A stretch of 38,171 bases of DNA from Clostridia bacterium. GTDB taxonomy: Bacteria; Bacillota; Clostridia; Christensenellales; Aristaeellaceae. The notes beneath the pieces were generated by a model. That model searched no databases, was not told the DNA's origin, and worked only from the letters and a program-made list of their open reading frames with translations. The stretch is from assembly GCA_017552535.1 (NCBI GenBank), contig JAFZPV010000011.1, forward strand, positions 1 through 38,171, given 5' to 3'. Positions 16,778 to 31,034 of this stretch are shown here, piece by piece. The translations under genes were made by a program, and so were the position numbers. The first letter of the stretch is position 1. Each line of letters starts with the position of its first letter.

Positions 16778-17659
16778 TCAGGCGCCTGCCTCCGGCGGCG
16801 ATTCCAGAAACTGCGATACCTTCAGCCGCGCGCGGTACAGTTCGTTGCGCTTGATGCCCTGGTCTCTGAGGCCGTAAGCCGCCTCGTCGAGCGTCGAGCC
16901 CTCCAGCATCCTTTGGAGAAGCTTCATTTCGGTGCTGATGCCGTCCGCTTCCGGCGCGGGCTTTTCGTCGGTCTCAACCAGAGACGTGTCCAGCACCACG
17001 CAGTATTCTCCCTTTTCGGCGTTTGGCATATCCTGAAGGCGCCGCGCGATCTCATCCGCGTTCCCCCGGTCGATGCGCTCGAACTTTTTGGTGAGGTCGC
17101 AGCACACGCACACCCTCGCGCCGGGCAGCTGTTTTGCGATGGTCAAAAGCAGCTCCGTCACGCGGTGCGGGGATTCGTACAGTACCGACACCGGTATGCC
17201 GCTTTGGGCGATGGAGGACAGTTTTTCCCTGAGCGCCTTGCCCTCCCGGGGCAGAAAGCCGTAAAACGCGAATTCCCGCGTATTAAATCCGCTCACGGAC
17301 AGGGCGGTAGCCGCGGCGCTGGGGCCACTGACGGGCGTAACGGGTATGCCCGCCTCCCAGCACTCGCTTACCAGCGCTTCGCCGGGGTCAGAGATGCCGG
17401 GGGTGCCCGCGTCGCAGGTGAGGGCCACGGTGAGGTCCTCCTCCAGCATGCGCTCCACGATGCCGCTCTTCCGCTCGTCCTCGTTGTGGCGGTGGCAGGA
17501 GATCATGGGCTTGTGGATGGAAAGCACCTGCAGAAGCTTCATGGTGACGCGCGTATCTTCCGCGGCGATCAGGTCGCAGGTCTCCAAAGCCTCGCGCATG
17601 CGCGGGGACATATCGCCCAGGTTTCCGATGGGCGTGGCCACCACGTAGAGTCTCGCCAT
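16778..17659 (-). CDS. rsmI: RsmI, 16S rRNA C1402 2'-O-methyltransferase
   Basis: RsmI adds the 2'-O-methyl to C1402 in helix 44 of 16S rRNA, using S-adenosylmethionine, and works with RsmH to make m4Cm. The 293-residue protein carries all family motifs: PIGNLGD (10-16), AEDTR (33-37), DAGTPGISDPG (83-93) and VSGPSA (110-115), then the C-terminal lysine/arginine-rich helix region typical of RsmI. Its ATG lies 2 bases after the stop of the G1405-type methyltransferase gene, so the two are translated from one message. It is the last gene of the dat-rsmH operon. Confidence 0.97.
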   Translation of the reverse strand: MARLYVVATPIGNLGDMSPRMREALETCDLIAAEDTRVTMKLLQVLSIHKPMISCHRHNEDERKSGIVERMLEEDLTVALTCDAGTPGISDPGEALVSECWEAGIPVTPVSGPSAAATALSVSGFNTREFAFYGFLPREGKALREKLSSIAQSGIPVSVLYESPHRVTELLLTIAKQLPGARVCVCCDLTKKFERIDRGNADEIARRLQDMPNAEKGEYCVVLDTSLVETDEKPAPEADGISTEMKLLQRMLEGSTLDEAAYGLRDQGIKRNELYRARLKVSQFLESPPEAGA

Positions 17660-17661
17660 CC

Positions 17662-18435
17662 TCAGGCCTCCTTCAATATGTAGCAGAGCTCGCTGCCCGC
17701 CGTAAAGACTTCCGCGATCTCAAAATGACCCGCGATCTCCGAAGCAAACCAGTCGGAATACGTCCGCTCCATGCCCACGTTCCGCCCGCCCAGCGTGCGG
17801 GTGGGAAAGGTGACCAGGATAAAGCGCGCCTTCAGGCTTTTGAGAAACGTAAGCGCCGAACCTTTGCATCCGGTCTCCAGCACCGGCAAAAGTTTCATGG
17901 CCAGTGCCAGGCCGAAGGTTTCATCCGGGGCGGAAAGGATCACGTCCCGGCACTCGGCCCTCACGTCCCAGCCGCAGGCCCTGGCCCAGTCGTTGATCAG
18001 TTTCACCGCGCCGCCGTGGATGTCCCAACCCAGAACGCCCTTCAGCCCCAGATGTCCCAGGTACAGGGGGTTGAGGCCGCAGGCCGCGTCGAACACCCGG
18101 GACGGCCCGCCCGTAAACGAGAGCACGCGGCTGAAAAGAGCGTCCATCCACTCCAGGCGTTCCCGGGTGGAGGCGTGCAGGCGCAGCGCGCGCGTGAGGG
18201 CGCTTTCGTCCCCCGACAGGTATTCGTCAAGGCAGGCTCCGACGGCCCTGGCCTCTCCCGGCGTCATGAACGCGCCGGTCACGGCGTGCAGCCTTTCCCT
18301 GGCGGCTTTCTCCGCGGCGGAAGGGTCGCCGCGGCGGGCCAGCTGGATCTCGAATTCCTTTTTCACGGTATCGGGGCAGATGTCCCGAAAGTTTTTGGCG
18401 GCCAGAAGGCGGTCAAGCGCCTGTTCTTTATTCAC
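17662..18435 (-). CDS. 16S rRNA G1405 N7-methyltransferase homologue (ArmA/RmtB/FmrO family)
   Basis: A 257-residue protein that aligns from end to end with RmtB-type enzymes, which methylate N7 of G1405 in the aminoglycoside site of helix 44. Shared signatures are CPDTVKK (20-26), RLHAVTGAFMTP (49-59), LHASTRERL (86-94), the SAM motif FDAACGLNPL (115-124), GWDIHGG (136-142), MKLLPVLE (180-187), and FPTRTLGGRNVGME (210-223). The start is GTG at 18435, overlapping the tgt stop as GTGA; homology of the first residues supports it. Known producers and resistant pathogens use this enzyme against 4,6-linked deoxystreptamine drugs. Here it sits inside a housekeeping operon with rsmH and rsmI, with no mobile element nearby and normal base composition, so it looks resident. 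Activity and target base are inferred. Confidence 0.88.
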   Translation of the reverse strand: MNKEQALDRLLAAKNFRDICPDTVKKEFEIQLARRGDPSAAEKAARERLHAVTGAFMTPGEARAVGACLDEYLSGDESALTRALRLHASTRERLEWMDALFSRVLSFTGGPSRVFDAACGLNPLYLGHLGLKGVLGWDIHGGAVKLINDWARACGWDVRAECRDVILSAPDETFGLALAMKLLPVLETGCKGSALTFLKSLKARFILVTFPTRTLGGRNVGMERTYSDWFASEIAGHFEIAEVFTAGSELCYILKEA

Positions 18436-19517
18436 AGCGCTTCTCCGATCAGTTCCATCAGTCGCCCATAAAAGCGCAGGTTGTGGGCAGTGGCCAGGCG
18501 CTGCGCCGCGGGGTCCCCCACCTTGAACAGGTGCTGAATGTACGCCCGCGAGTATCTGCGGCAGGCGGCGCAGGTGCAGTTTTCGTCTATGGGGCGACCG
18601 TCCCGGGTGTATTCCTCGTCCATGATGTACATGAAGCGGTAGAACTTTCCGTCCTCGCGCATCACGCCCTGGGGCGTCTCATCCTCGAACACGTACAGGC
18701 GCTGGTGCCTGGCCTCCCGCGTGGGGATCACGCAGTCGAACAGGCTGTAGCCCATCTTCACCAGCAGGCTGATCTCCTCGGGACGACCCACGCCCATGGC
18801 GTATTTCACTTTATCGTCCGGCATGGCGTCCGCCGCCATCCGGAGCACGTCCGTGAGCATTTTTCCGTTTTCGTCCGTAGGCCAGCCGCCAAAGCCGTAT
18901 CCGTCAAAGCCGATCTCCTCCAGGCGCCGGCCGCACTCCATGCGCAGCTCCCGGTCCTGCCCGCCCTGCACGATGCCGAACAGGAGCGGTCTTGGACCTT
19001 TGAGGTTCTTTACCAGCCGGTCGTATTCCTCCCGGCACCTTTTGCCCCACTTGACCGTAAGCTCCACGCTCCTTTTCTGCTCCTCGTACGAGTCAAAGGG
19101 ATGCGTGCACAGGTCAAGCGCCATCATGATGTCGCTTTGGTACATGAACTGGGCCTGGATGCACTTTTCGGGCGTATAGTGCAGCTTCTCCGCGCCGCGG
19201 TCGGGGCGGAAGAGGATCTCCTTTTCGCGGATCTCGCCGTAATCGGCGTTTTCGCGTATCATGGAATACAGCTGGAAGCCGCCCGAATCCGTGAGTACCG
19301 CGCCGCTCCAGCCGGAAAAACGCTTGAGCCCGCCCAGGCTTTTGATGAGTTTCGCGCCCGGCTTGTTGTACAGATGCCAGGTGTTCATCTCCAGGCCCTT
19401 CAGGCCGGCGTCCTTTACGTCGTCCACGTCCGCGGCGCGCACGGCGGCATAGGTGGCGTCCGGGAAAAAGGCGGGCAGGGTGAGCTCGCCTGAGGGCAGT
19501 GAAAGCGATCTTACCAT
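18432..19517 (-). CDS. tgt: tRNA-guanine transglycosylase family protein with altered substrate loop
   Basis: Tgt exchanges the wobble guanine of GUN tRNAs for a 7-deazaguanine. This 361-residue protein keeps the general acid-base TDSGGFQ (D77), the nucleophile FDCVIPTR (D261), FGIVQGG (180-186), MGVGRPEEI (241-249) and the zinc site (C314, C316, C319 and H345). The base-specificity loop, normally GGLAVGE, reads GGWPTDE (210-216): the glutamate is kept but four residues change, and the N-terminal segment normally containing GT-GTVK is FPDATYAAVRAAD. Substrate preference may therefore differ (preQ1, queuine or another base). The ATG at 19517 follows GGAGGGG and overlaps the rsmH stop by 7 bases; the 3' end overlaps the methyltransferase gene. 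Confidence 0.87.
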   Translation of the reverse strand: MVRSLSLPSGELTLPAFFPDATYAAVRAADVDDVKDAGLKGLEMNTWHLYNKPGAKLIKSLGGLKRFSGWSGAVLTDSGGFQLYSMIRENADYGEIREKEILFRPDRGAEKLHYTPEKCIQAQFMYQSDIMMALDLCTHPFDSYEEQKRSVELTVKWGKRCREEYDRLVKNLKGPRPLLFGIVQGGQDRELRMECGRRLEEIGFDGYGFGGWPTDENGKMLTDVLRMAADAMPDDKVKYAMGVGRPEEISLLVKMGYSLFDCVIPTREARHQRLYVFEDETPQGVMREDGKFYRFMYIMDEEYTRDGRPIDENCTCAACRRYSRAYIQHLFKVGDPAAQRLATAHNLRFYGRLMELIGEAL

Positions 19518-20458
19518 TGTATCCCCTCCGCCACGCGCAAAACCGCGCTCCGGGCGCGCGGGTTCGATTCCAGTTCTTCTTCCGAAGCCGTCACGGGCTT
19601 GCCCACCAGTTTGACCTTTGGGTGCTTTCCGCACACGCATACCGGAAAATCCTTAGGGCAGGTGCAGGGATCGGCCAGGCTTTTGAAGGTGTTCTTCACG
19701 ATCCTGTCTTCCAGAGAGTGGAAAGCGATCACGCACAGCCGCCCGCCAGGAACAAGCATGTCCGCCAGGTCCCTCAGGGCCCTTTCCAGCGGCTCCAGTT
19801 CGTCGTTCACCGCGATGCGCAGGGCCTGGAACGTGCGCCGGGCGGGGTGGGAGCCGTCGCGGGCGCGCACCCGTTTGGGAATGGCCGCGTCGATGATGTC
19901 CACCAGCTGCGCGGTGGTCTCCACGGGCATGAGCTTCCGGCGGTCGCAGATCACCCGCGCGATCTGCATGGCCCACTTCTCCTCCCCGTACAGGGTGAGG
20001 ATGCGGCACAGCTCGTTTTGGGAATAGCTGTTCACGATGTCCCGGGCGGTGAGCGCCTGGCTTTTGTCCATGCGCATATCCAGCGGGAAATCCCCCTGGT
20101 AGGAAAATCCCCTCTCCCCTTCGTCCAGCTGGTGGGAGCTCACGCCCAGGTCCAGCAGCGCGCCGTTCAGGCGCGTGACCCCAAGATCCGCCAAAAGCGC
20201 TCTCGCGTCGTGAAAGTTGCCCCGGACGGCGGTAAAGCGGTCCGAAAGCCCCAGGCCGCGGATGCGCTCCGAGGCGGCCTCAATGGCCTCCCGGTCCCGG
20301 TCGATGCCGTACAGATGGCCGGTGGTGAGCCTTTCCAGGATGCGGGCGCTGTGTCCCCCGCCGCCCAGCGTGCCGTCGAGATACACGCCGTCCGGACGGA
20401 TGTTCAGGCCGTCCAGGCACTCGTTAAGCAATACCGGGATATGATGGAACTGGGTCAT
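19511..20458 (-). CDS. rsmH: RsmH, 16S rRNA C1402 N4-methyltransferase
   Basis: RsmH (MraW) adds the N4-methyl to C1402 of 16S rRNA. The 315-residue protein starts HHIPVLLNECLDGL, has the SAM motif YLDGTLGGGGHS (26-37), LDLGVSSHQLDEGERGFSY, HPARRTFQALRIAVNDEL and the C-terminal NPRARSAVLRVAE. The ATG at 20458 overlaps the dat stop as ATGA. In most bacteria rsmH is the second gene of the division and cell wall cluster, after mraZ and before ftsL; here it is coupled to dat and to other decoding-centre enzymes instead. Confidence 0.97.
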   Translation of the reverse strand: MTQFHHIPVLLNECLDGLNIRPDGVYLDGTLGGGGHSARILERLTTGHLYGIDRDREAIEAASERIRGLGLSDRFTAVRGNFHDARALLADLGVTRLNGALLDLGVSSHQLDEGERGFSYQGDFPLDMRMDKSQALTARDIVNSYSQNELCRILTLYGEEKWAMQIARVICDRRKLMPVETTAQLVDIIDAAIPKRVRARDGSHPARRTFQALRIAVNDELEPLERALRDLADMLVPGGRLCVIAFHSLEDRIVKNTFKSLADPCTCPKDFPVCVCGKHPKVKLVGKPVTASEEELESNPRARSAVLRVAEGIQW

Positions 20459-21297
20459 ACGCTGGTCTCGCGCAAAAAGCGCGTCCACACATAGCTCTTG
20501 AGGGCCTCGAAGTTTTCGGGGTCCTTCGCGCCTGCGTCCTGTCCGTCCACACTGACGGCCCGGCGCAGGAAGGAGGTGGAGGAGGTGATCAGGATCTCGT
20601 CCGCCCGCATCAGTTCCTTCACGGTGTAGGGACGCTCCTCCGCGGGGATGCCCAGCGCCGCGCAGGCCTCCAGCAGATGGGCCCTGGCGATGCCGGACAG
20701 GATCAGGTTATCCGCCGGCGCGGTGATCAGGCGACCGTCCTTCAGGATATGCACGTTGCTCTTGGAGCACTCGGTCACGCGTCCGCCCCGGTGCAGGATG
20801 GCTTCGTAGCAGCCCTGCTCCTTGGCGGTCTGCATGGCCATGATGGAGGGAATCAGGTTAAGGGTCTTGATGTTGCAGTGCAGAAAGCGCGTGTCTTCCA
20901 GCGTGATGCACTTTACATACTGCGTAAGGTCCGGAAAACGGTAGGGCGTGATCATCATCATGAGATTCGCCTTCGTTCCCTCCGGGAAGGGATGCGCCCG
21001 CCTGGCCGTTCCCCTGGAAAGCTGCCAGTACAGTACATTGTCGCCGCCGTCCACGAGGGCCACCATGCGTTTGAGCTCGGCCTTGAGCGCCTCCGTGTCC
21101 ATGGGCATATCGATGCGCAGAAGCGACGCGCTCCTGAGCATGCGGTTCACGTGCGCGTCCAGCGCGTAGATCACCTTATTGCGCGTGGGCGTGGCTTCGT
21201 ACACCCCGTCTCCGTAATAAACCGCCCTGTCCGTCATGGGCACCGTCATTTCGTCCAGCGGACCGTATGCGCCGTTATAGTATCCCAGTGCTTCCAT
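20455..21297 (-). CDS. dat: D-alanine aminotransferase
   Basis: A 280-residue fold-type IV PLP enzyme that interconverts D-alanine and D-glutamate, supplying peptidoglycan precursors. The PLP lysine is K144 in CNIKTLNL and the co-factor glutamate is E176 in RVTECSKSNV, nearly the same numbers as in the Bacillus enzyme (K145, E177). The D-side carboxylate trap SRGTARRAHPFP (94-105) supports Dat rather than branched-chain aminotransferase. The ATG at 21297 has GGGAGG 10 bases upstream; longer in-frame extensions lack support. It is the first gene of the operon dat-rsmH-tgt-rmt-rsmI. A perfect TATAAT lies at 21331-21336 on the minus strand. Confidence 0.93.
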   Translation of the reverse strand: MEALGYYNGAYGPLDEMTVPMTDRAVYYGDGVYEATPTRNKVIYALDAHVNRMLRSASLLRIDMPMDTEALKAELKRMVALVDGGDNVLYWQLSRGTARRAHPFPEGTKANLMMMITPYRFPDLTQYVKCITLEDTRFLHCNIKTLNLIPSIMAMQTAKEQGCYEAILHRGGRVTECSKSNVHILKDGRLITAPADNLILSGIARAHLLEACAALGIPAEERPYTVKELMRADEILITSSTSFLRRAVSVDGQDAGAKDPENFEALKSYVWTRFLRETSV

Positions 21298-22757: not shown

Positions 22758-24905
22758 TCATTCGCCGAGTATGATCAGTTCAGTCTTGCCCGAATCGTTC
22801 AGGTACACGCTCACCGTGCCGCCGTCAGCGCCTTCTTCCGCGGGCCCAAACGTCACTTCCCACATACCGGAGGAAGCGTCGCGGCTCACGGATGCTTCGC
22901 GCTCCCCCGCCACCTCGGTGCGGGCAGCCGTAACGGCTTTTTCCGCGCTGTCGATCCTTTCGGCGCCGGGATTCAGGAAGTCATCAAACCGCACGCAGGG
23001 ATCGCCGTAGACGCTCCAGGCGTAGGAGAGCACTTCGTCATAGGAGAAGCTGCCCACGTATATGCCGCCGTCCCAGGTCTCCAGGCCCTTGGCCCGGGAG
23101 ATCAGGTACATGAGTTCGGTCTCGTCGTCGTTGGCACCGTCCAGCTTTTTAAGGGTCTCCACGGCCATATCATAGCTGGACGCGCCCTTGTACTGGCTGT
23201 TTCTGAGCAGCATGCCGAATTCGGTCACCGCTTCGGCCAGGCGGAGGTTGCGCTGCATGTCTTCGGACGCCTCCGCGTCAGGCGTTACGACGGCAACGTA
23301 CTCTTCGCTCTTTTCGCCGTCAGGCAGCTTGCACCTGACCTTCACCTGCGCCACCTCTTCAATACCGGTGGTCTGGGCGGTCTGGTATTTAAGTTCGGAC
23401 GCCTGAGCGCCCTGGCTGCCCTTCACGCCCGCCAGCACTGTTCCCTCAGCGGGGATCAGTTCGTACAGCGCCACCACCGTGTGGCCGGAGCCCATCTCGC
23501 CGCCGTCCTTGGTGTCGTCGGCAAAGTCTTCATTCGCAAGAGCCCTGTTCTCGTAGCCGATCAGGCGGTAGGCAGAAACGTAGGCGGGATTGAATTCCAC
23601 CTGGAGCTTCACGTCCTTGGCCACCGTGAAGAAGTTGGCGCCCATCTCGGTGACCAGCGCCCGGCGGGCTTCCTCCAGGGAATCGATGTAGGAATACACG
23701 CCGTTTCCATGGTCGGCCAGGGCTTCCAGCTTGTTGTCCTTGTAGTTCCAGCCGCCAAAGCCCATCACGGACAGGAACACGCCGGACTGCTTCTTCTCTT
23801 CGATCAGCTCCGTCAGCGCCGCCTGGCTGGTGACGCCCACGTTCAGGTCGCCGTCGGTCATCAGGATCACACGGTTGTTGCCGCCCTGGATAAAGTATTT
23901 CTCCGCAATGGCGTAGGCCGTCACGATGCCCGCGCTGCCGTTGGTGGAGCCCCAGGCGGTCATGGCGTTCACCTTGTCCATGATCTCGGAGCGCCTGGCC
24001 CCGTCCACGCCTTCCAGCTCCACGCGGTCGGTGCCCGCGTAGGTGACAATGGAGATCACGTCACCCTCGCTGAGGTTTTCGGTAAACAGCGCGAAGGCGC
24101 GCTTGATGAGGTCCAGGCGGTCCGGGCCGTCCATGGAGCCGCTGGTATCCACGAGGAACACGATGTTGGAGCGGGGCAGGTCGTCCGTGGCGATCTTTTG
24201 CGCGCCCACGCCCACCATCAGCAGAGCGGCGTTCTCGTTCCAGGGGCATACGTCCAGCGCCGTGGAGATCGCAACGGGCTTATCGTCTTTGGGCGCCAGG
24301 CCGCGGTAGGAGAAGTAATTGAGCATCTCCTCGATGCGCACGCTTTGGCGGGCGGGCATTTCGCCGTTCAGCAGCTTTCTGCGCACCGTGGTGTAGCCGG
24401 CGGTGTCCACATCCGCCGCGAAGGTGGACAGGGGCGAAGTGAGCACGCTCTTAAAGCCGCTTTCCACGATCTGGCTGTATTCCTCGGTGTTGAAGCTGAA
24501 GGAAAAGCCCTTGTTTGAGTACATGCCCATGGCAGGCATCGCTTCCATGGCGTACATGCCGTCGGCTTCTTCGGTCACCACGAACCATTCCATTTCTCCC
24601 GTGGGGGCTTCATCGTCCGCCGCCGTCTTAACGCCGGGCGTCGCCTGCACAACTGCGGTCTGAGCGGTCGTGTCCGGTTCGGGCAAAGGCATGTTCAAAG
24701 TCCCGTTCCTGACGGGCAGAAAACGCGGCAGGGCGATAGCCAGCGCCAGAGCGCAGGCCACGAGGGCCGCGCCGGACAGGACGAAGCGCCTGATCCTGGG
24801 TTTGGGTTCTCCGCGGGCCGCTTCCATTTTGGCCAGCGTGGCGGCTTCAAAATTCTCCTTGGGTTCGATCTTTGATATGGCCCGGCTGTATCTGTTGTCT
24901 TTCAT
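22758..24905 (-). CDS. YfbK-like von Willebrand factor A membrane protein
   Basis: A 715-residue protein with a cytoplasmic head (1-40), one membrane segment (41-60) and a large outer part. The conserved entry TFAADVDTAGYTTVRRKLLNGEMPARQSVRIEEMLNYF is that of YfbK-type proteins. A vWA domain follows with the metal site DTSGSM (253-258), MTDGD and a conserved threonine region, then the C-terminal YfbK/DUF3520-type domain with TGIEEVAQVKVRCK and LRLAEAVTEFGMLLR. It likely binds proteins through Mg2+ at the cell surface. The gene overlaps the upstream ECF sigma gene by 4 bases (ATGA), the place usually held by an anti-sigma factor; the short cytoplasmic head could serve that purpose (inference). 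Confidence 0.87.
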   Translation of the reverse strand: MKDNRYSRAISKIEPKENFEAATLAKMEAARGEPKPRIRRFVLSGAALVACALALAIALPRFLPVRNGTLNMPLPEPDTTAQTAVVQATPGVKTAADDEAPTGEMEWFVVTEEADGMYAMEAMPAMGMYSNKGFSFSFNTEEYSQIVESGFKSVLTSPLSTFAADVDTAGYTTVRRKLLNGEMPARQSVRIEEMLNYFSYRGLAPKDDKPVAISTALDVCPWNENAALLMVGVGAQKIATDDLPRSNIVFLVDTSGSMDGPDRLDLIKRAFALFTENLSEGDVISIVTYAGTDRVELEGVDGARRSEIMDKVNAMTAWGSTNGSAGIVTAYAIAEKYFIQGGNNRVILMTDGDLNVGVTSQAALTELIEEKKQSGVFLSVMGFGGWNYKDNKLEALADHGNGVYSYIDSLEEARRALVTEMGANFFTVAKDVKLQVEFNPAYVSAYRLIGYENRALANEDFADDTKDGGEMGSGHTVVALYELIPAEGTVLAGVKGSQGAQASELKYQTAQTTGIEEVAQVKVRCKLPDGEKSEEYVAVVTPDAEASEDMQRNLRLAEAVTEFGMLLRNSQYKGASSYDMAVETLKKLDGANDDETELMYLISRAKGLETWDGGIYVGSFSYDEVLSYAWSVYGDPCVRFDDFLNPGAERIDSAEKAVTAARTEVAGEREASVSRDASSGMWEVTFGPAEEGADGGTVSVYLNDSGKTELIILGE

Positions 24906-25381
24906 TCTTCCGTACCTCCCAGTTCCCGGCGCAAAAGCTCCCGCCCGCGGCTGAGCCAGGTGCCTACCGTGGCTTCGCGGGCGCCGAGCATCTGCGCGAT
25001 CTCAGCGATGGAATACCCCTCGTAATACTGCAGGTGTACCGGCCAGCGGTATTTGCCGGGCAGCTTGCCCATCGCCCGGATCACCTCGCGGCTCTCCTCG
25101 TCGGCGGGCAGCTCCTCGGAAAGCGGTTCCCTGCTTTTGAACCAGCCGCTGCGCAGCATGTTTTTGCACTTGTTGGCAGTCACCCGGATCAGCCAGGCCT
25201 TTTCGGCCTCAGGGTCGCTGAATACCGGGGCGTGCTTCATGTAGGACACGAAGGCGTCCTGCACGGCGTCCTGCGCGTCGGCGTGATTGAGCAGATACGA
25301 GTAGGCAAAGCGCACCAGGTCGGCGCTCCAGCGCCTGAGTGCCAAAGCGGCTGCGTCGTATCTAGCGTTGTCCAATGACAT
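24902..25381 (-). CDS. ECF-family RNA polymerase sigma factor (second)
   Basis: A 159-residue ECF sigma factor. Region 2 is VRFAYSYLLNHADAQDAVQDAFVSYMKH with AWLIRVTANKCKNMLRS; region 4 has VHLQYYEGYSIAEIAQMLGAREATVGTWLSRGRELLRREL. It begins at the ATG at 25381, 8 bases after GGAGG; the in-frame GTG at 25390 lies inside that ribosome binding site and is rejected. It lies 75 bases after the ECF transporter S gene, in the same direction; no convincing own promoter was found, so partial read-through from the transporter operon is possible. Its stop overlaps the vWA protein start, so the pair forms one signalling unit. Confidence 0.92.
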   Translation of the reverse strand: MSLDNARYDAAALALRRWSADLVRFAYSYLLNHADAQDAVQDAFVSYMKHAPVFSDPEAEKAWLIRVTANKCKNMLRSGWFKSREPLSEELPADEESREVIRAMGKLPGKYRWPVHLQYYEGYSIAEIAQMLGAREATVGTWLSRGRELLRRELGGTEE

Positions 25382-25456
25382 CTCACGCACCTCCTTCGCC
25401 TGAGAAACACCTGAGCGGGCGTATATTTTTCACGGGAAACGAGAATTAACCGATTC

Positions 25457-26143
25457 TTAAACTCCGTACTTGAGCTTGACGCGGGTAAACTTTTCGCCGA
25501 AAGGCTTTGCAAAAATGAACAAGAATACCGTATTGGAGATCACATAGGAAACGGTGTAGGGCACGGCGCTCACCAGCGAAGTGAGGTACAGCGCGGTATC
25601 GAAACCGTTGCCGTACCAGACGACCGTCCATATATCCATGATAAAGGAATACGCCACGCCCGCCAGGGCGCCGTACAGCACCAGAATGATTCTTGAACGT
25701 TTCAGCGGACCCGAAAGAAAACCCGCGAACAGGCCGATCAGCCCCAGCGCCATCATTTGAAACGACGTCCAGGGGCCCTGGCCGAAATAGAAGTTGGACA
25801 GCACGGCGGTGAGCGACCCCGTGAGGAAACCCGCCTCCCCGCCCAGGTACACGCCCGTCAGGATAGTTAGGGCGGTTACAGGCTTGAACACGGGAATAAA
25901 GCGTCCCGCCACCGACAGCGCCACCATGACGGCCACCAGCACGAGCCGCCGGGAGCCCGTCTTTTTCTTTTCGAAGCCCGCCGCGAACAGCATGAAGGAA
26001 AGCAGCGCGATCAGAAGCGAAATGAGCGCATAGTTCTTCTGTCTAAGCACCAGGGCGCCCAGCGCCACCAGCGCAGGGATCAGCGCGAAGGGCACAAAAG
26101 CGCGCACCGCCCGGCGGAGGGGAGCACTTTTGATCACGAACAT
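25457..26143 (-). CDS. ECF transporter substrate-binding membrane subunit (S component)
   Basis: A 228-residue, almost wholly hydrophobic protein with about seven membrane segments, two more than the common six-helix S unit because of an N-terminal helical pair (residues 15-55). The recognisable core GRFIPVFKPVTALTILTGVYLGGEAGFLTGSLTAVLSNFYFGQGPWTSFQMMALGLIGLFAGFL is typical of vitamin-type S components that have been predicted to carry cobalamin in Clostridia. It overlaps the ATPase gene by 10 bases and ends a six-gene operon that also encodes transcobalamin-like proteins. Substrate is inferred from neighbours; a queuosine-type base or a thiamin precursor cannot be excluded from the sequence alone. 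Confidence 0.8.
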   Translation of the reverse strand: MFVIKSAPLRRAVRAFVPFALIPALVALGALVLRQKNYALISLLIALLSFMLFAAGFEKKKTGSRRLVLVAVMVALSVAGRFIPVFKPVTALTILTGVYLGGEAGFLTGSLTAVLSNFYFGQGPWTSFQMMALGLIGLFAGFLSGPLKRSRIILVLYGALAGVAYSFIMDIWTVVWYGNGFDTALYLTSLVSAVPYTVSYVISNTVFLFIFAKPFGEKFTRVKLKYGV

Positions 26144-27768
26144 GCTTTATCCCTCTCCCCGTTTATCCTCAGGATCTCTTCCGCGTCCTCCAGCGTGGCC
26201 ACAAGGTCATACAGGCCGCGGGTCATGCGGCTGAAAGAAGTGGTATAAAAGCTGTTGCCGGCAAAAAATCGCCTGGGCAGATCGCAGCTCGTCACCTCGC
26301 CCATGAACATCATGGCGCATCTGTCGGAGACCCTGGCGGCGAATTCCACGTCGTGAGTCACGCACAGAACAGCGATGCCGCGGGCTTTAAGGCTTCTGAC
26401 CACGTCTTCAAAGCGGAGCTTTGTCTCCGGGTCCAGGCCTTTCGTAGGCTCGTCCATCAGAAGCAGGCGCGGCTTTGCCATCAGCGCTCTGGCGAGGGCC
26501 ACCAGCTGCTGCTGCCCGCCGGAAAGATCGTAGGGATGCCGGTCCATCAGGCCGCTCAGATCGAAGGGCAGGTCCTGAAGGCAAGCGCCTTCCAGTTCCT
26601 CGCGCACCGTGGCGCGCAGGAACACCGTCTGCACGTCCTGGGGCAGAAGGGCCACGCAGCCATCGTACAGCGACTGGTTTTTGTACTGCCGGATTTTTTT
26701 CCCGAACACGCGCACCGTGCCCGCGTAGGGCCTGCGCAGCCCCGCAGCGCAGCTGAGCAGAGTCGTCTTGCCGGAGCCGTTTCCGCCCAGCAGGCAGAAC
26801 ACCTCGTTTTCATACGCGCGGAAGGAAAGATCTTTAAGCGCGTCCTTTCCGTCCCTGGAGTAGCGGAAATACACGTTTTCAAATTCCAGCGCAGGCTTGC
26901 CTGAAGGCGCTCTGTCCTCCCCGGGCAGCGCGGTCACGTCCCGCTTATACCGCTTTTCGATGAGCGCGCGGCCCTCCTTTGCGCTCACGGGGCAGGCGTC
27001 CTTCAGGCCCAGCTTCAGGCACAGCCGGGTGGCGGCGGGCAGGTACGGGACCATGTCTTCCTGCCTGCCGATCTCTTTAAGCGCCTCCCGCACGGGGGCA
27101 CAGGCGATCAGCCGGCCGTTTTTCAGCGCCATCAGCCTGTCGGAGCGCTCCAGAGCTTCCTCCAGCCGGTGCTCGATCAGAAGCACCGTAAGGCCGAACT
27201 CCCGGTTCAGCCGCCGCACGGTATTGATGAATTCGGACGCCTGTATGGGGTCGAGCTGCGCGGTGGGCTCGTCAAGGAGCAGCACTTCCGGCTGCATCAC
27301 CATGACGGAGGCCAGGTTGAGCATCTGCTTCTGCCCGCCGGACAGGGCGCTCACCTTTTCCTCGAACCAGGGTTCCATACCGAAATAACAGGCGATCTCC
27401 GATACGCGGCGGCGGATCAGCCCGTTTTCAAAGCCCAGGTTTTCCAGGCCGAAGGCCAGCTCGTGCCACACCTTGTCGCACACGATCTGCTCGTCCGGGC
27501 GCTGGCACACGTAGCCGATGCGCGAGGCGGAAAGCGCCCCGTCCAGGTCCCCGAGCTTTTTCCCATCGTACAGGATCTCACCTTCCAGGCTTCCCAGGGG
27601 CTGGAGCTCTTTTTTCAGAAGCCGCATCAGGGTGCTTTTGCCGCTGCCCGTGGCGCCGCACAGCGTAACGAATTCGCCCCGCGCAAGGGCGAACGACACC
27701 TTATCCAGCGCCTTTTGCGAGGCGTTTGGATAGGCAAAGCTCAGATCCCGGACTTCAAGAAGCGCCAT
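26134..27768 (-). CDS. ECF transporter fused double ATPase (A1-A2)
   Basis: A 544-residue protein with two complete ABC ATPase halves in tandem, the energising part of an energy-coupling factor transporter. First half: Walker A GATGSGKST (38-46), signature LSGGQKQ, Walker B LLLDEPTAQLDP. Second half: Walker A GGNGSGKTT, signature LSGGQQQL, Walker B LLLMDEPTKGLDP, then the switch histidine in CVTHD. In most ECF systems the two ATPases are separate genes; fused forms occur in group I systems such as YkoD. The start was set at the ATG at 27768 (MALLEVRDLSFAYP), which overlaps the T-component gene by 28 bases; longer extensions lack support. Confidence 0.95.
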   Translation of the reverse strand: MALLEVRDLSFAYPNASQKALDKVSFALARGEFVTLCGATGSGKSTLMRLLKKELQPLGSLEGEILYDGKKLGDLDGALSASRIGYVCQRPDEQIVCDKVWHELAFGLENLGFENGLIRRRVSEIACYFGMEPWFEEKVSALSGGQKQMLNLASVMVMQPEVLLLDEPTAQLDPIQASEFINTVRRLNREFGLTVLLIEHRLEEALERSDRLMALKNGRLIACAPVREALKEIGRQEDMVPYLPAATRLCLKLGLKDACPVSAKEGRALIEKRYKRDVTALPGEDRAPSGKPALEFENVYFRYSRDGKDALKDLSFRAYENEVFCLLGGNGSGKTTLLSCAAGLRRPYAGTVRVFGKKIRQYKNQSLYDGCVALLPQDVQTVFLRATVREELEGACLQDLPFDLSGLMDRHPYDLSGGQQQLVALARALMAKPRLLLMDEPTKGLDPETKLRFEDVVRSLKARGIAVLCVTHDVEFAARVSDRCAMMFMGEVTSCDLPRRFFAGNSFYTTSFSRMTRGLYDLVATLEDAEEILRINGERDKACS

Positions 27769-28619
27769 TTCAGTTCGTCTCCCCATTCGATCAAAGAGGG
27801 CAAAAGCGTCAAAACGCCGTAGCACAGGTAGGATGCAATGCTCATGCCGTCACAGGGCACGGCGCTGAGCGCCGGATAAAACACGAATCTCACGCCGCCG
27901 AAAGCTGCCGGCCATACGGAGAAAAGCGCCAGAACCAGCGCGCTCGCGGTCAGGCAGGCGTCCTTCGCCCCAAAGCAGCGGCGGGCAAAAAAGCTGCGGC
28001 GGGTCACGCCGTAGCCCCGGGCCGCCATGGAATCCGCCGTGATCACGCCGTTTTCCAGCGCCCAGGTGACCATCACGGAGAATACGCGCATGCCGCCCCG
28101 CATGGCGTCGATGGGATTGTCGTCCTTATACAGTCCCAGCGCCTTCTGGGCGTCGTTCACTTTTTTCGCCTGCTGTTTAAACAGCGGGATGTAGCGCAGC
28201 GCCATGGATACCGTGAGGGCGAGCCTGGGCGAGAAGCGGCCAAACAGGTACAAAAGCTTGTCCGACGTCATGATCTGGGAATAGCTTCTGAACCAGTACA
28301 ATACCGATACGATCATTCCGGAAGCGGCAAGGCCGTACAGACAGGCCTCCAGCGTGACCGGGTTGTCGTTCAGAACGAACAGCACGGTAACGCCGTTGTG
28401 GTGCGTGAGCGGATTGATGAGGGCCATCACCAGAAACAAAAGCAGGTACAGCGCGTGGGAGCGCATGCCGTTTGATCCGTTCCTCGTAAAGTACAGGCTC
28501 AGCGCGCCGAAAAGCGACAGCGCCAAAATCACCGGATGCATGGAGAACATGGCAACGCCCGCCGCGGCCATAAAGTATACCGTGACGGCGACGGGGTCGT
28601 ATCTGTCCAGTGCGCTCAT
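27741..28619 (-). CDS. ECF transporter transmembrane coupling subunit (T component)
   Basis: A 292-residue CbiQ-type membrane subunit that couples the ATPase to the S component. Five to six membrane segments are visible. The two coupling motifs that contact the ATPases are present: the SMALRYIPLF region, and AARGYGVTRRSFF as the usual ARG motif. The conserved STHPVIL-like start SMHPVILALSLFG fits the family. It overlaps the TIM-barrel gene by 4 bases (ATGA) and the ATPase gene by 28 bases, so all three are translationally coupled. Confidence 0.92.
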   Translation of the reverse strand: MSALDRYDPVAVTVYFMAAAGVAMFSMHPVILALSLFGALSLYFTRNGSNGMRSHALYLLLFLVMALINPLTHHNGVTVLFVLNDNPVTLEACLYGLAASGMIVSVLYWFRSYSQIMTSDKLLYLFGRFSPRLALTVSMALRYIPLFKQQAKKVNDAQKALGLYKDDNPIDAMRGGMRVFSVMVTWALENGVITADSMAARGYGVTRRSFFARRCFGAKDACLTASALVLALFSVWPAAFGGVRFVFYPALSAVPCDGMSIASYLCYGVLTLLPSLIEWGDELKWRFLKSGI

Positions 28620-29428
28620 GATAAAAACCCCTGGTCCGACAGCCAGTCTACGGACGGCCGGAGGCTGTTTGTCTCGACGGTGAAGGTAGCCTTGGGAACG
28701 AGCCTGTCCGCCTCCAGAAGCAATTCCCGCATGGGGATCGTTCCATCCCCCAGCGCCTTATGCGTGTCGCCTGCGCCCGCGCAGCCTTTTGCCGGGCCGT
28801 TATTGTTGTGCAGGTGAAAATGGCTGATATACTTTGCACAAGTCCTGAGCCACTCCATGACCGGCAGTCCTGTGAGGTTTGCGTGGCCCACGTCCAGGCA
28901 CATGCGCAAACGCTCGTCGTCCACGCCTTCGATGATGTCCAGGATCACCCCGGGATCCTCCTCCATCACGTTCTCCAGGCATATCACGGTATCGCCCGCA
29001 TGCGCGGCGAGAAAGCGCTTCCAGAATTCGATCTGCCTTGAGGCTGTCCAGGTGGGAAAGTACAGCACGTTTATGTGGTTTACGTGCACGACCATTTTTT
29101 CGCAGCCCGCCTTTTGGCATATCTCCCAGGCGCGGCTTAGGCGCTCCTCGGCGACCCGGGCTACCTTTTTGTCTATGGCGTGGGGCAAAAGCTCGTTGAA
29201 CGGGGCGTGCATCACCCGGTGCTTTGCCCGGCGCACGTTCCGTTCAAAATGCGCCCGCACGGCGGAATCGTCGTCCATGTTGTCGGACAGGCAGTATTCC
29301 GCCAGTTCCAGACCGAAGCCGCATTGGGCCGCCAGATCAGCCGTGCGGGGCTCGTAGCGGATGGCAAAGCTGGTTTCGTCCTCGCACACGTCCGCGATGG
29401 TGGAAAGAAAAAAGCGTTTCCTGTTCAT
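28616..29428 (-). CDS. Xylose-isomerase-like TIM-barrel protein
   Basis: A 270-residue member of the AP endonuclease 2 / sugar isomerase superfamily, a metal-dependent TIM barrel. Metal-ligand motifs run in order: MVVHVNH near residue 112, VICLENVM (conserved glutamate), CLDVGHAN (aspartate and histidine) and HFHLHNNNG, then VETN near the C-terminus. It has no signal peptide. It lies 4 bases after the transcobalamin-like gene and overlaps the T component by 4 bases. Its place inside a transport operon suggests that it acts on the imported compound or on a sugar part of it; the substrate is unknown. Confidence 0.8.
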   Translation of the reverse strand: MNRKRFFLSTIADVCEDETSFAIRYEPRTADLAAQCGFGLELAEYCLSDNMDDDSAVRAHFERNVRRAKHRVMHAPFNELLPHAIDKKVARVAEERLSRAWEICQKAGCEKMVVHVNHINVLYFPTWTASRQIEFWKRFLAAHAGDTVICLENVMEEDPGVILDIIEGVDDERLRMCLDVGHANLTGLPVMEWLRTCAKYISHFHLHNNNGPAKGCAGAGDTHKALGDGTIPMRELLLEADRLVPKATFTVETNSLRPSVDWLSDQGFLS

Positions 29429-29432
29429 ATCT

Positions 29433-31034
29433 TCAGCGGTCCTTTACGTCCTCCCCCAGGTCCCGGGTGTACAGCCAGGCGATCTCGTCTCCGTCCCTGA
29501 GCACATAGTCTCCGCAGCCCACCGACGCCGATATGCCGTTTACATGGTACACCCAGCCGGAAAGCTCGCCGAAATCGTATTCGTACAGGTGGTTGATGCC
29601 CGCGATGTATTTCAGGCCGTATCCGCCCAGCGCGCCGCTTTTGCTGTCCAGCTGGATGCGGTAGGTCCTGGCCGCCTGGGTGAGCACGTCGTACACTGTG
29701 TCGCCCCGCAGGATGGCAAACTCCGTGACCGGCAGGATCACCCCGTCTGCCGGGATGTATTCAGCGTCCGAAAGGCCCAGCACTGTATCGCAGCGTATGG
29801 TGAGCGTGACCGTTCCCGCTTCTTCGCCCGTACGCTCCGCTTCTTGGCTGTAGTATGCCTCGGTAGAGCGGATATCGGTAAACCATATCACGCACGCGAG
29901 CGCGGACGCCACCAGCACAACGAACAGGCAGTTTTTGAAGCGGTGCTTCTTTTTAAGGCACATCAGGGCGCAGGCAGGAAGCGCCAGCAAAATCAGCGCC
30001 AGCGTGGAGACGGTCTTGTAATCCATGCCCTTCCGGACGGATACCGCATCTGCTTCAGACACGCCGGAAGCTTTTCTCACTTCCGCCGCGTGGCCGTCGA
30101 ACACGTAGAACGGCCCAAGGTGGCTGCGGGTGCGCCAGAGGGAAACGAAAGCCTCGAAGGCCTGCACCGTGGCGGTGAGGTTCGAAGGTGAATCCTGAAC
30201 GTGGCAGAAGCTGCCGTCCGCAAGCCGGTACATGAGCATGGCGTCCACGCAGCTTGCACCATTTTTCACAAAGTCCGGCCTGGTCTCCGGGTCCGTTCCC
30301 AGAGCGCACAGGGCGATCACCACCTGCGCGGTGCTCTCCAGGCTCTCGATGCCGCCGAATCCCTTAAAGCCGCCGTTGTCCAATTGCACCCTGCTGAGCA
30401 GTTCCAGCGCCCTGTCCACGCAAGTGCGCACGTTTTCGTAGGAATAGTAATACGGTGCCAGCGCCTGTACGGTCATGGCCGTGACGTCGGTATCGTATCT
30501 GTCCCCCATCACGGCCCAGCCGCCGTCTTTCTTCTGCTGGGACAGGATGACGTCCACGATGTCCGTCGGCGTGAAGCTGTCGCTGCTTACGCCCAGCGTG
30601 AGCAGGTGCAGCCCGTAGATATAGCTCATCAGGCCCTGGGCGCCGATGGAGGAATTGGCCGTGTCCGTTACGTACGCGGCGTCCGCCCGCCCGCAGGAGA
30701 CCAGCGCCAGAGCGTATTTGAGCTTCGTGGTGTCGCCGACGATCGTGTTTTCCTGAAGGAAGGTCACGAGCCGGTCGGCGTACGCCTCTCTGTCGAAGGA
30801 CGTGCCGTACTGGCCCAGCGCCATGATGTACCATTCTGAGGCGGGCGAAAGCGTTTCGGTGAGCGAATGCCGCACCCACTTCTCCGCAGAGGCGCAGCCG
30901 GACGACTGAACGTTATAGGCAACGATACCGTCGGCGAGCGCTTGGGCATCGCCGGCGGTATGTTCGGAAGCGTTCGCCGTGAAGGCGCACAGGGCGATCA
31001 CGGCGAGAAGAAACAGGCTGAAAAGCTTTTTCAT
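29433..31034 (-). CDS. Transcobalamin-like membrane protein: alpha/alpha repeats plus DUF4430
   Basis: A 533-residue surface protein. A signal peptide (1-22) is followed by helical prenyltransferase/squalene-oxidase-type repeats with QKKDGGW (167-173), QLDNGGF (217-223) and LADGSF (271-276). Two membrane segments (341-360 and 368-386), joined by the basic turn KKKHRFKN, form a hairpin. A C-terminal DUF4430 domain (about 435-525) carries DTVYDVLTQAA, YIAGINHLYEYDFGELSG, WVYHVNG and LRDGDEIAWLYT. Both folded domains would face outside. The same two domains make up animal intrinsic factor and transcobalamin, where they clamp cobalamin; here a transmembrane hairpin links them. Cobamide binding is inferred. 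It is the second gene of the ECF transporter operon. Confidence 0.82.
   Translation of the reverse strand: MKKLFSLFLLAVIALCAFTANASEHTAGDAQALADGIVAYNVQSSGCASAEKWVRHSLTETLSPASEWYIMALGQYGTSFDREAYADRLVTFLQENTIVGDTTKLKYALALVSCGRADAAYVTDTANSSIGAQGLMSYIYGLHLLTLGVSSDSFTPTDIVDVILSQQKKDGGWAVMGDRYDTDVTAMTVQALAPYYYSYENVRTCVDRALELLSRVQLDNGGFKGFGGIESLESTAQVVIALCALGTDPETRPDFVKNGASCVDAMLMYRLADGSFCHVQDSPSNLTATVQAFEAFVSLWRTRSHLGPFYVFDGHAAEVRKASGVSEADAVSVRKGMDYKTVSTLALILLALPACALMCLKKKHRFKNCLFVVLVASALACVIWFTDIRSTEAYYSQEAERTGEEAGTVTLTIRCDTVLGLSDAEYIPADGVILPVTEFAILRGDTVYDVLTQAARTYRIQLDSKSGALGGYGLKYIAGINHLYEYDFGELSGWVYHVNGISASVGCGDYVLRDGDEIAWLYTRDLGEDVKDR

Follow-up and report, generated by a model that had tools for sequence, protein, structure and literature searches.

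Here we describe a chromosomal operon in which an Rmt-family 16S rRNA methyltransferase (16S-RMTase) is joined to a second, divergent tRNA-guanine transglycosylase (TGT), the pair lying between the two enzymes that modify C1402. The operon was found on a 38,171-nucleotide stretch of DNA, contig JAFZPV010000011.1 of assembly GCA_017552535.1, from an uncultured Clostridia bacterium of the family Aristaeellaceae; this whole stretch is referred to as the window. The transglycosylase gene, tgt2, and rmt form a two-gene module that is present or absent as a unit, and comparison with plasmids points to operons of this type as the source of several acquired 16S-RMTases. Plasmid-borne 16S-RMTases abolish the action of nearly all clinical aminoglycosides and their chromosomal origin is, as far as our literature search showed, open. 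A conserved chromosomal operon in uncultured gut and rumen Clostridia, with the gene order of the plasmids and with RmtD and RmtG nested in its clade, opens the question of the donor to direct testing through sampling. It also reveals new biology, a dedicated TGT paralogue that accompanies Rmt on chromosomes and on some plasmids.

Layout and conservation of the operon

The assembly that holds the window comprises 2.39 Mb at 77 % completeness, and the locus lies on its contig C19. Five genes run on the minus strand in the order dat-rsmH-tgt-rmt-rsmI (coordinates include the stop codon):

20455-21297, minus strand: dat, class IV aminotransferase, first gene of the run (ATG start with GGGAGG upstream; PF01063, 168 bits)
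19511-20458, minus strand: rsmH, 16S rRNA (cytosine-1402, N4) methyltransferase (ATG start; TIGR00006, 372 bits, cut-off 154)
18432-19517, minus strand: tgt2, second tRNA-guanine-transglycosylase paralogue and partner of rmt (ATG start; TIGR00430; GGWP pocket signature)
17662-18435, minus strand: rmt, chromosomal Rmt-family 16S rRNA (guanine-1405, N7) methyltransferase (GTG start, 257 aa; PF07091, NF000466)
16778-17659, minus strand: rsmI, 16S rRNA (cytidine-1402, 2'-O) methyltransferase (ATG start with GGAGG upstream; TIGR00096, 220 bits, cut-off 168)

Overlaps of 4 bases (dat/rsmH), 7 bases (rsmH/tgt) and 4 bases (tgt/rmt) and a gap of 2 bases between rmt and rsmI reproduce both the order and the spacing (4, 7, 4 and -2) given by a first-pass annotation of this DNA, and bear out the close coupling of the genes that it proposed. 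A terminator consensus scan of the minus strand gave no site within the five-gene run and one terminator-like site 3′ of rsmI, at 16587-16575. The name dat is provisional because the protein scores 217.5 bits against the D-amino-acid transaminase model TIGR01121, under the cut-off of 277.45. Both rsmH and rsmI have a single match in the 77 % complete window genome (G000). The window rmt does not have the marks of an acquired, mobile gene: its order is conserved across species, and no mobile-element domains were found in the 20 other window proteins scanned, four of which had no match of any kind.

The Rmt protein scores 250.0 bits against NF000466, 'Rmt family 16S rRNA (guanine(1405)-N(7))-methyltransferase', exactly the cut-off of 250, and 123 bits against PF07091 (cut-off 27); its best single-enzyme model is RmtF, at 254 bits for a model cut-off of 500. 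The nearest solved structures by sequence are RmtF (6pi9) and RmtB (3frh), which align over approximately the full length; RmtF is 50 % and RmtB 42 % identical to the window protein, which supports the initial description of an RmtB-like protein of the G1405 family. The motifs HASTRERL, D.ACG.NP, KLLP.LE and FPTR.LGGR..GM are common to the window Rmt and the solved family members. RmtF, RmtB, RmtE, ArmA and RmtC belong to this same Rmt family. Sgm and its kin, the self-protection methylases of aminoglycoside producers, belong to the same superfamily (102 bits between the window Rmt and Sgm, 3lcu), but unlike them the window rmt is linked to housekeeping rRNA-modification genes. The ratio of nonsynonymous to synonymous substitution (dN/dS) of rmt is 0.10-0.37 in 13 pairs of relatives, indicating purifying selection. 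The window Rmt probably makes a standing m7G1405.

The gene order around rmt is conserved well beyond the window. Among 30 loci fetched from the family (L027 being the window's own), tgt adjoins rmt upstream in all 30 and rsmI is in reach downstream in 29, the exception being L026. A scan of named-species genomes, in which the single window Rmt gave no match and an alignment query was used, yielded 65 rmt loci, mostly from rumen, gut and faecal Clostridia plus Chloroflexota and others, with matches in Candidatus Pullichristensenella, Faecivicinus and Christensenella sp. UBA1224. These divide into 54 near loci and 11 distant ones (L086-L095, L097), counted apart; the near loci overlap with the 300-genome survey described below in at least L051 (G049) and L096 (G077). 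In the near loci tgt2 lies directly upstream of rmt in 50 (contig end in 2, absent from L051 and L096), rsmI lies at most 1.5 kb downstream in 48 (contig end in 3, absent from L035, L036 and L037) and rsmH lies upstream of tgt2 in 44 (contig end in 7, absent from L040, L051 and L096). Of these 20 misses, 12 are due to contig ends, and in the other 8 the gene is truly missing from that position. The first-pass annotation had proposed to look for the same order in related genomes and to give up the idea if none was conserved; rsmH-tgt-rmt-rsmI is conserved in the window's family.

Genomes of the family that lack Rmt reveal which part of the operon varies. Of 15 such genomes, 11 have rsmH and rsmI side by side (G026 in reverse order), three have them apart (G014, G025, G032) and one is undecided (G006). 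The belief that rsmI normally stands alone is thus mistaken here: tgt2-rmt is the variable part, and the likely ancestral frame is rsmH-rsmI, the two C1402 enzymes, with tgt2-rmt lying between them. Both frame genes are single-copy where found; rsmH was missed in G153 and is partial in G006, while rsmI escaped detection in G006 and G326 and is broken into two fragments in G118. The gene dat, initially counted in the unit, was rejected as part of it: of the 39 near loci that show 900 bases or more upstream of rsmH, a single one (L034) has dat there, with a dat piece at the contig start of L035, and in G098, a member of the window's genus, dat-rsmH-rsmI are joined without tgt2-rmt. It is a genus-level neighbour outside the conserved core.

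A two-gene module with a second transglycosylase

Across 300 genomes of the family, PF07091 is found in 68 (67 over the cut-off), among them 27 of the 120 genomes of at least 90 % completeness, and in 18 of 50 genera. With a Tgt2 threshold of E at most 1e-85, Tgt2 is present in 67 genomes, both proteins in 66 and neither in 231; Rmt occurs by itself in two and Tgt2 in one (Fisher p = 6e-63, relatedness ignored). All three odd genomes are accounted for by contig ends: an rmt piece follows tgt2 in G020, a tgt2 piece precedes rmt in G153, and in G078 rmt runs off the contig with tgt2 out of view. The two genes lie within 1 kb of each other in 62 of the 66 genomes and on different contigs in four (G034, G040, G049, G077). 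In G049, inspected on both sides (in G077 on the rmt side), the operon has come apart into the pairs rsmH-tgt2 and rmt-rsmI, with no contig end at either, and both genes are kept; their retention after separation favours a shared function over hitch-hiking. The near loci L051 and L096, candidates for an Rmt without Tgt2, were rejected as such, as they belong to G049 and G077, where Tgt2 is on another contig. Thus, tgt2-rmt is a two-gene module, present or absent as a unit.

The first-pass annotation took the tgt gene of the operon for the enzyme of tRNA position 34. A separate housekeeping-type Tgt, 35-40 % identical to the window protein, is present in all 24 genomes chosen for comparison (in two fragments in G118), and the operon gene is a second, divergent Tgt accompanying Rmt. 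This second Tgt, 56-100 % identical to the window's, occurs in all seven Rmt carriers (as a contig-end piece in G153) and in none of the 17 others. In a tree of 90 rows, Tgt2 and the housekeeping Tgt separate with an SH-aLRT support of 100, by a quick method and with a warning for long branches. The window Tgt2 scores 311.4 bits against TIGR00430, just over the cut-off of 306.75. It is of the same protein family as the bacterial TGT described by that model and differs from it in its separate clade, its co-existence with a housekeeping TGT and its partnership with Rmt.

The base pocket sets Tgt2 apart. The motif GGWP is found in the window protein, in all 62 chromosomal Tgt2 rows (two of which duplicate genes represented by other rows) and in three of four plasmid Tgts, the rmtE2 Tgt having GGFP; all 23 housekeeping rows have GGLS and the solved bacterial TGT has GGLA in this loop. 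The two groups are fixed for different residues at 18 positions, W212 and P213 among them, and have in common 65 columns conserved to at least 95 %. The conserved Tgt2 residues presumably include, by Z. mobilis numbering, the nucleophile, the general acid/base, the base-stacking Tyr and Met, two Arg at U33/U35 and the zinc ligands; these positions are at least 95 % conserved and identical in the two groups. Because the catalytic residues are kept while the W212/P213 pocket is changed, Tgt2 should be an active TGT with an altered base preference. Compared with a housekeeping, queuosine-type Tgt, it agrees in model and residues and lacks both the GGL[SA] loop and the status of the main Tgt found in all genomes.

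The pairing extends outside the family. At the order level (347 genomes searched) tgt lies upstream of rmt in all four loci over the cut-off (L109, L110, L111, L116), and at the class level (341 genomes) in both (L121, L122); rsmI adjoins only in L121 of these six. In families f17 and f23, the one genome inspected of each (G381 and G385) carries tgt2-rmt on contigs other than those of rsmH and rsmI. In a sample of the phylum (299 genomes), six genomes besides G000 pass the Tgt threshold; five have GGWP, each with rmt and rsmI alongside, rsmI being downstream in L258, L261 and L262 and upstream in L259 and L260, and the sixth (L263) has GGLS and no rmt. In the class of G1018, Rmt is present in 5 of 12 genomes, all with tgt2 upstream, four of the five being also in the phylum sample. 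The loci L259, L260 and L273 (G1161, G1018) have rsmI upstream of tgt2-rmt rather than downstream, and since two gene orders are seen, the linkage of the module to rsmI appears to have arisen more than once. The idea that this lineage coordinates decoding-centre modification thus survives in part: the recurrent rmt-rsmI linkage in other families supports coordination at helix 44, but the Tgt is not the housekeeping wobble enzyme and dat lies outside the core. In four of the 11 distant loci a tgt is in view upstream of rmt: immediately before it in L094 and L095, about 390 bases away in L090 and 4.2 kb away in L091. A search of viral contigs for Rmt found none, and the Tgt2 query gave nine viral loci at 34-40 % identity.

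Plasmid copies and the probable origin of acquired enzymes

Plasmids carry the same arrangement, a link to acquired resistance that the first-pass annotation had missed. In a tblastn search of 72,556 plasmid records, the window Tgt matched 69. Twelve of the matches, at 60-80 % identity, are all from Enterobacterales: eight are rmtG-annotated, two are Klebsiella records (KT935445, KT935446) and two Providencia (CP118864, CP118865). Four further records (H57-H60) have a partial tgt at 55-56 %. For the window RsmH, matches of 60-80 % occur on nine plasmid records, and at least eight of these, at 66 %, are the rmtG plasmids.

Five plasmid stretches with tgt were opened (CP021956, KT935445, CP118864, LC511996, KU130396). 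CP021956 has rsmH-tgt-rmtG and an rsmI fragment, followed by an IS91-like transposase; the fragment spans 79 aligned residues that are 70 % identical to the window and 85 % to L015. KT935445 has the end of rsmH, tgt and rmtD1, CP118864 has tgt, a metallophosphoesterase gene and rmtB2, and both LC511996 and KU130396 have a partial tgt and rmtE2 behind an IS91-family transposase. The RmtG and RmtD plasmids thus have the order of the window, whose operon, in contrast, is chromosomal and complete and belongs to an uncultured gut-type bacterium. As with the window rmt, rmtB2 and rmtE2 travel with a tgt, whereas the rmtF1 and rmtB1 plasmid stretches inspected contain none. In the rmtG copy, the RsmH, Tgt and RsmI parts are 66-70 % identical to those of the window; RmtG and RmtD1 are 36-41 % identical to the window Rmt. 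The open frames that follow rmtD1 and rmtE2 were considered as rsmI and are not supported, having no match in the chromosomal loci compared.

The rmtG plasmid operon itself is already in print: a review (PMC9311965), attributing it to Passarelli-Araujo 2019, describes rmtG in an operon with rsmH, tgt and 'rsmL', and an excerpt of PMC3904158 reports a tRNA ribosyltransferase upstream of rmtG. The identification of Tgt2 makes sense of this ribosyltransferase.

Phylogeny relates the plasmid enzymes to the chromosomal ones. In an Rmt tree of 79 rows, which includes genes from metagenome-assembled genomes (MAGs), RmtD1 and RmtG pair (97/95) inside the chromosomal clade of the window's family (99/96; together with L079, L081, L082 and L083 at 98/79). 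The MAGs nearest to RmtD and RmtG come from gut Clostridia of horses, rabbits and deer. RmtF1 pairs with L029/L033 at moderate support (87/86), RmtB branches as the sister of the main family clade (the two unite at 99/99) and RmtE2 pairs with the class-level locus L122 (100/94); ArmA and RmtC sit on long branches with no safe position. The Tgt tree agrees in the main, placing the rmtG Tgt with L079/L082 (96; 'Lapin' MAGs), the rmtD Tgt with L062/L081/L083 (89), the rmtB2 Tgt as sister to the main family clade (97) and the rmtE2 Tgt with L026, L094, L095, L110 and L122 (93). The best chromosomal identities are 78 % for the RsmH of rmtG; 81 %, 82 %, 68 % and 71 % for the Tgts of rmtG, rmtD, rmtB2 and rmtE2 (a piece); and 52 %, 56 %, 52 %, 47 % and 41 % for RmtG, RmtD1, RmtF1, RmtB2 and RmtE2.

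A literature search of titles and abstract openings, thin on subscription papers and not targeted at the second Tgt or its signature, gave no paper naming a chromosomal source, which is weak evidence of absence. Passages of PMC10132066 and PMC10536106 make no mention of one, and a portion of PMC12406665 names the producers, actinomycetes, as a proposed source of plasmid 16S-RMTases.

Three further plasmid features were seen. The metallophosphoesterase gene between tgt2 and rmtB2 (L104, 6158-6967) has no match among the other loci compared. The E. coli plasmid p8R-3 (L099, 2065-2807) has an rmt-like sequence without annotation, in two parts that are 46 % and 35 % identical to the window, near an IS91-family transposase and blaTEM-1. 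On an rmtF1 plasmid (L100, 2820-2963 and 3774-3836) short rmt-like stretches flank rmtF1, as if from a broken second copy.

Proposed mechanism and alternatives

Taken as a whole, we consider it likely that this is a decoding-centre operon with an rsmH-rsmI frame and a tgt2-rmt unit, that it provides a standing m7G1405 and that operons of its type were the source of several acquired 16S-RMTases. On 30S subunits Rmt would methylate G1405 at N7, constantly rather than on induction, and the ribosome would thereby become insensitive to 4,6-disubstituted deoxystreptamine aminoglycosides and similar decoding-site drugs made by neighbours. A single transcript, suggested by the overlaps, would keep Rmt, RsmH and RsmI balanced, a sensible arrangement given that RsmI can be hindered at C1402 by m7G1405. 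Tgt2, a catalytically complete TGT with a changed pocket, would probably insert a different base into one of the RNAs of the decoding apparatus and thereby preserve translational accuracy in the presence of m7G1405. Elements of the IS91/ISCR type may have carried the pieces rsmH-tgt2-rmtG-rsmI′, tgt2-rmtD, tgt2-rmtB and tgt2′-rmtE onto enterobacterial plasmids. Of this picture, gene order, co-occurrence, selection and the nesting of RmtD and RmtG are observed, and activity at G1405, a single transcript, constitutive use, coordination with RsmI, a role for Tgt2 and carriage by IS91/ISCR elements are inferred. Interference between Rmt-type enzymes and native helix 44 methylases is described in a portion of PMC12406665, in which ArmA blocks RsmI at C1402 and RmtC and Sgm block RsmF.

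A number of observations weigh against this reading. The window Rmt barely makes the NCBIfam cut-off, and seven distant rmt genes have no tgt in view, counting locus surroundings only: L086-L089 (Roseiflexus and other Chloroflexota), L092 and L093 (Defluviitaleaceae) and L097. On the plasmid side, the rmtF1 stretches inspected lack tgt, RmtE belongs to a different lineage, ArmA and RmtC have no assigned position, and all three fall outside the main family clade; between the plasmid genes and their nearest chromosomal relatives, identity is just 41-56 % for Rmt and 68-82 % for Tgt, meaning that the lineage is found and the donor species themselves are unsampled. All 65 named records are labelled MAG or uncultured. 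The module is patchy, both in the full survey and among the genomes of at least 90 % completeness, and is for that reason dispensable. One locus of the same family, L026 (G067, genus g29), lies outside the main Rmt clade, on a long and weakly supported branch, its Rmt and Tgt2 grouping with other families on long branches; from this placement, inheritance of tgt2-rmt may not be wholly vertical. RsmF was rejected as a co-varying partner, its PUA domain being present in 20 of 22 genomes with Rmt and 19 of 21 without, and this domain gives no sign of adaptation to the known Rmt interference. A 16S pattern was not found in 30 of the 43 genomes searched, the few matches in Rmt carriers being imperfect and helix 44 of the carriers unreadable.

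Plain intrinsic resistance, with Rmt settled in a well-expressed housekeeping operon and Tgt2 hitch-hiking without a shared function, is unlikely. The Rmt family is known for resistance, the patchiness of the module would fit, Rmt seems functional alone on the rmtF1 and rmtB1 stretches, and the seven distant loci have no tgt in view. Against it, the dN/dS of tgt2 (0.05-0.20) is below that of rmt in 13 of 13 pairs and is the lowest of the three in 10 of the 12 pairs that compare tgt2, rmt and rsmI (rsmI 0.02-0.29), it occurs without Rmt once in 300 genomes, at a contig end, and it was retained after its split from rmt in G049. In addition, aminoglycoside uptake is poor in strict anaerobes.

A bolder proposal, to which we give rather little weight, is remodelling by both enzymes, in which Rmt would set m7G1405 and Tgt2 would swap a guanine for a base other than queuosine, possibly in rRNA itself. 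TGT follows a UGU rule, which the UGU beside helix 44, at 1391-1393, would satisfy; this sequence was seen in three Rmt-less relatives only. Such an exchange would, to our knowledge, be without precedent as a base-exchange modification of a ribosome, and it would already be circulating on rmt plasmids.

It is doubtful that Rmt and Tgt2 instead tune decoding (fidelity, initiation) through a regulated rather than constant modification, with resistance as a by-product. The linkage to rsmH and rsmI would suit this role, as m4Cm1402, the RsmH/RsmI modification, tunes the P site and affects its function and fidelity (excerpt of PMC5053481), as would the altered readthrough and frameshifting that Rmt-type enzymes cause in E. 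coli (portion of PMC12406665). Against it, the module is patchy among close relatives and absent from G098 and G137 of the same genus. Drifted targets, with Rmt methylating a different nucleotide and Tgt2 an ordinary queuosine enzyme, are very improbable: a score just at the cut-off and the kept catalytic residues of Tgt2 would allow them, but Rmt has its motifs in common with solved RmtF and RmtB over about the full length, the plasmid-borne RmtD and RmtG, which are designated G1405 enzymes, are nested within the chromosomal set, and a separate housekeeping Tgt is present. Chance adjacency, for which one could cite the short gaps common in compact genomes, is already refuted by an order conserved in dozens of species and several families.

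Elsewhere in the window, three minus-strand regions were noted. An ECF-type transporter run at 25457-31034 comprises an S component, a two-ABC protein, CbiQ and a xylose-isomerase-like TIM barrel; it adjoins a protein with a prenyltransferase/cyclase-like toroid and DUF4430, which we take to be reminiscent of transcobalamin. At 22758-25390 a YfbK-like VWA protein directly follows an ECF-sigma-like gene (24902-25390, judged by eye), likely a sigma/anti-sigma pair. At 761-1789 lies an ATP:guanido phosphotransferase catalytic domain in a protein that is presumably McsB-like.

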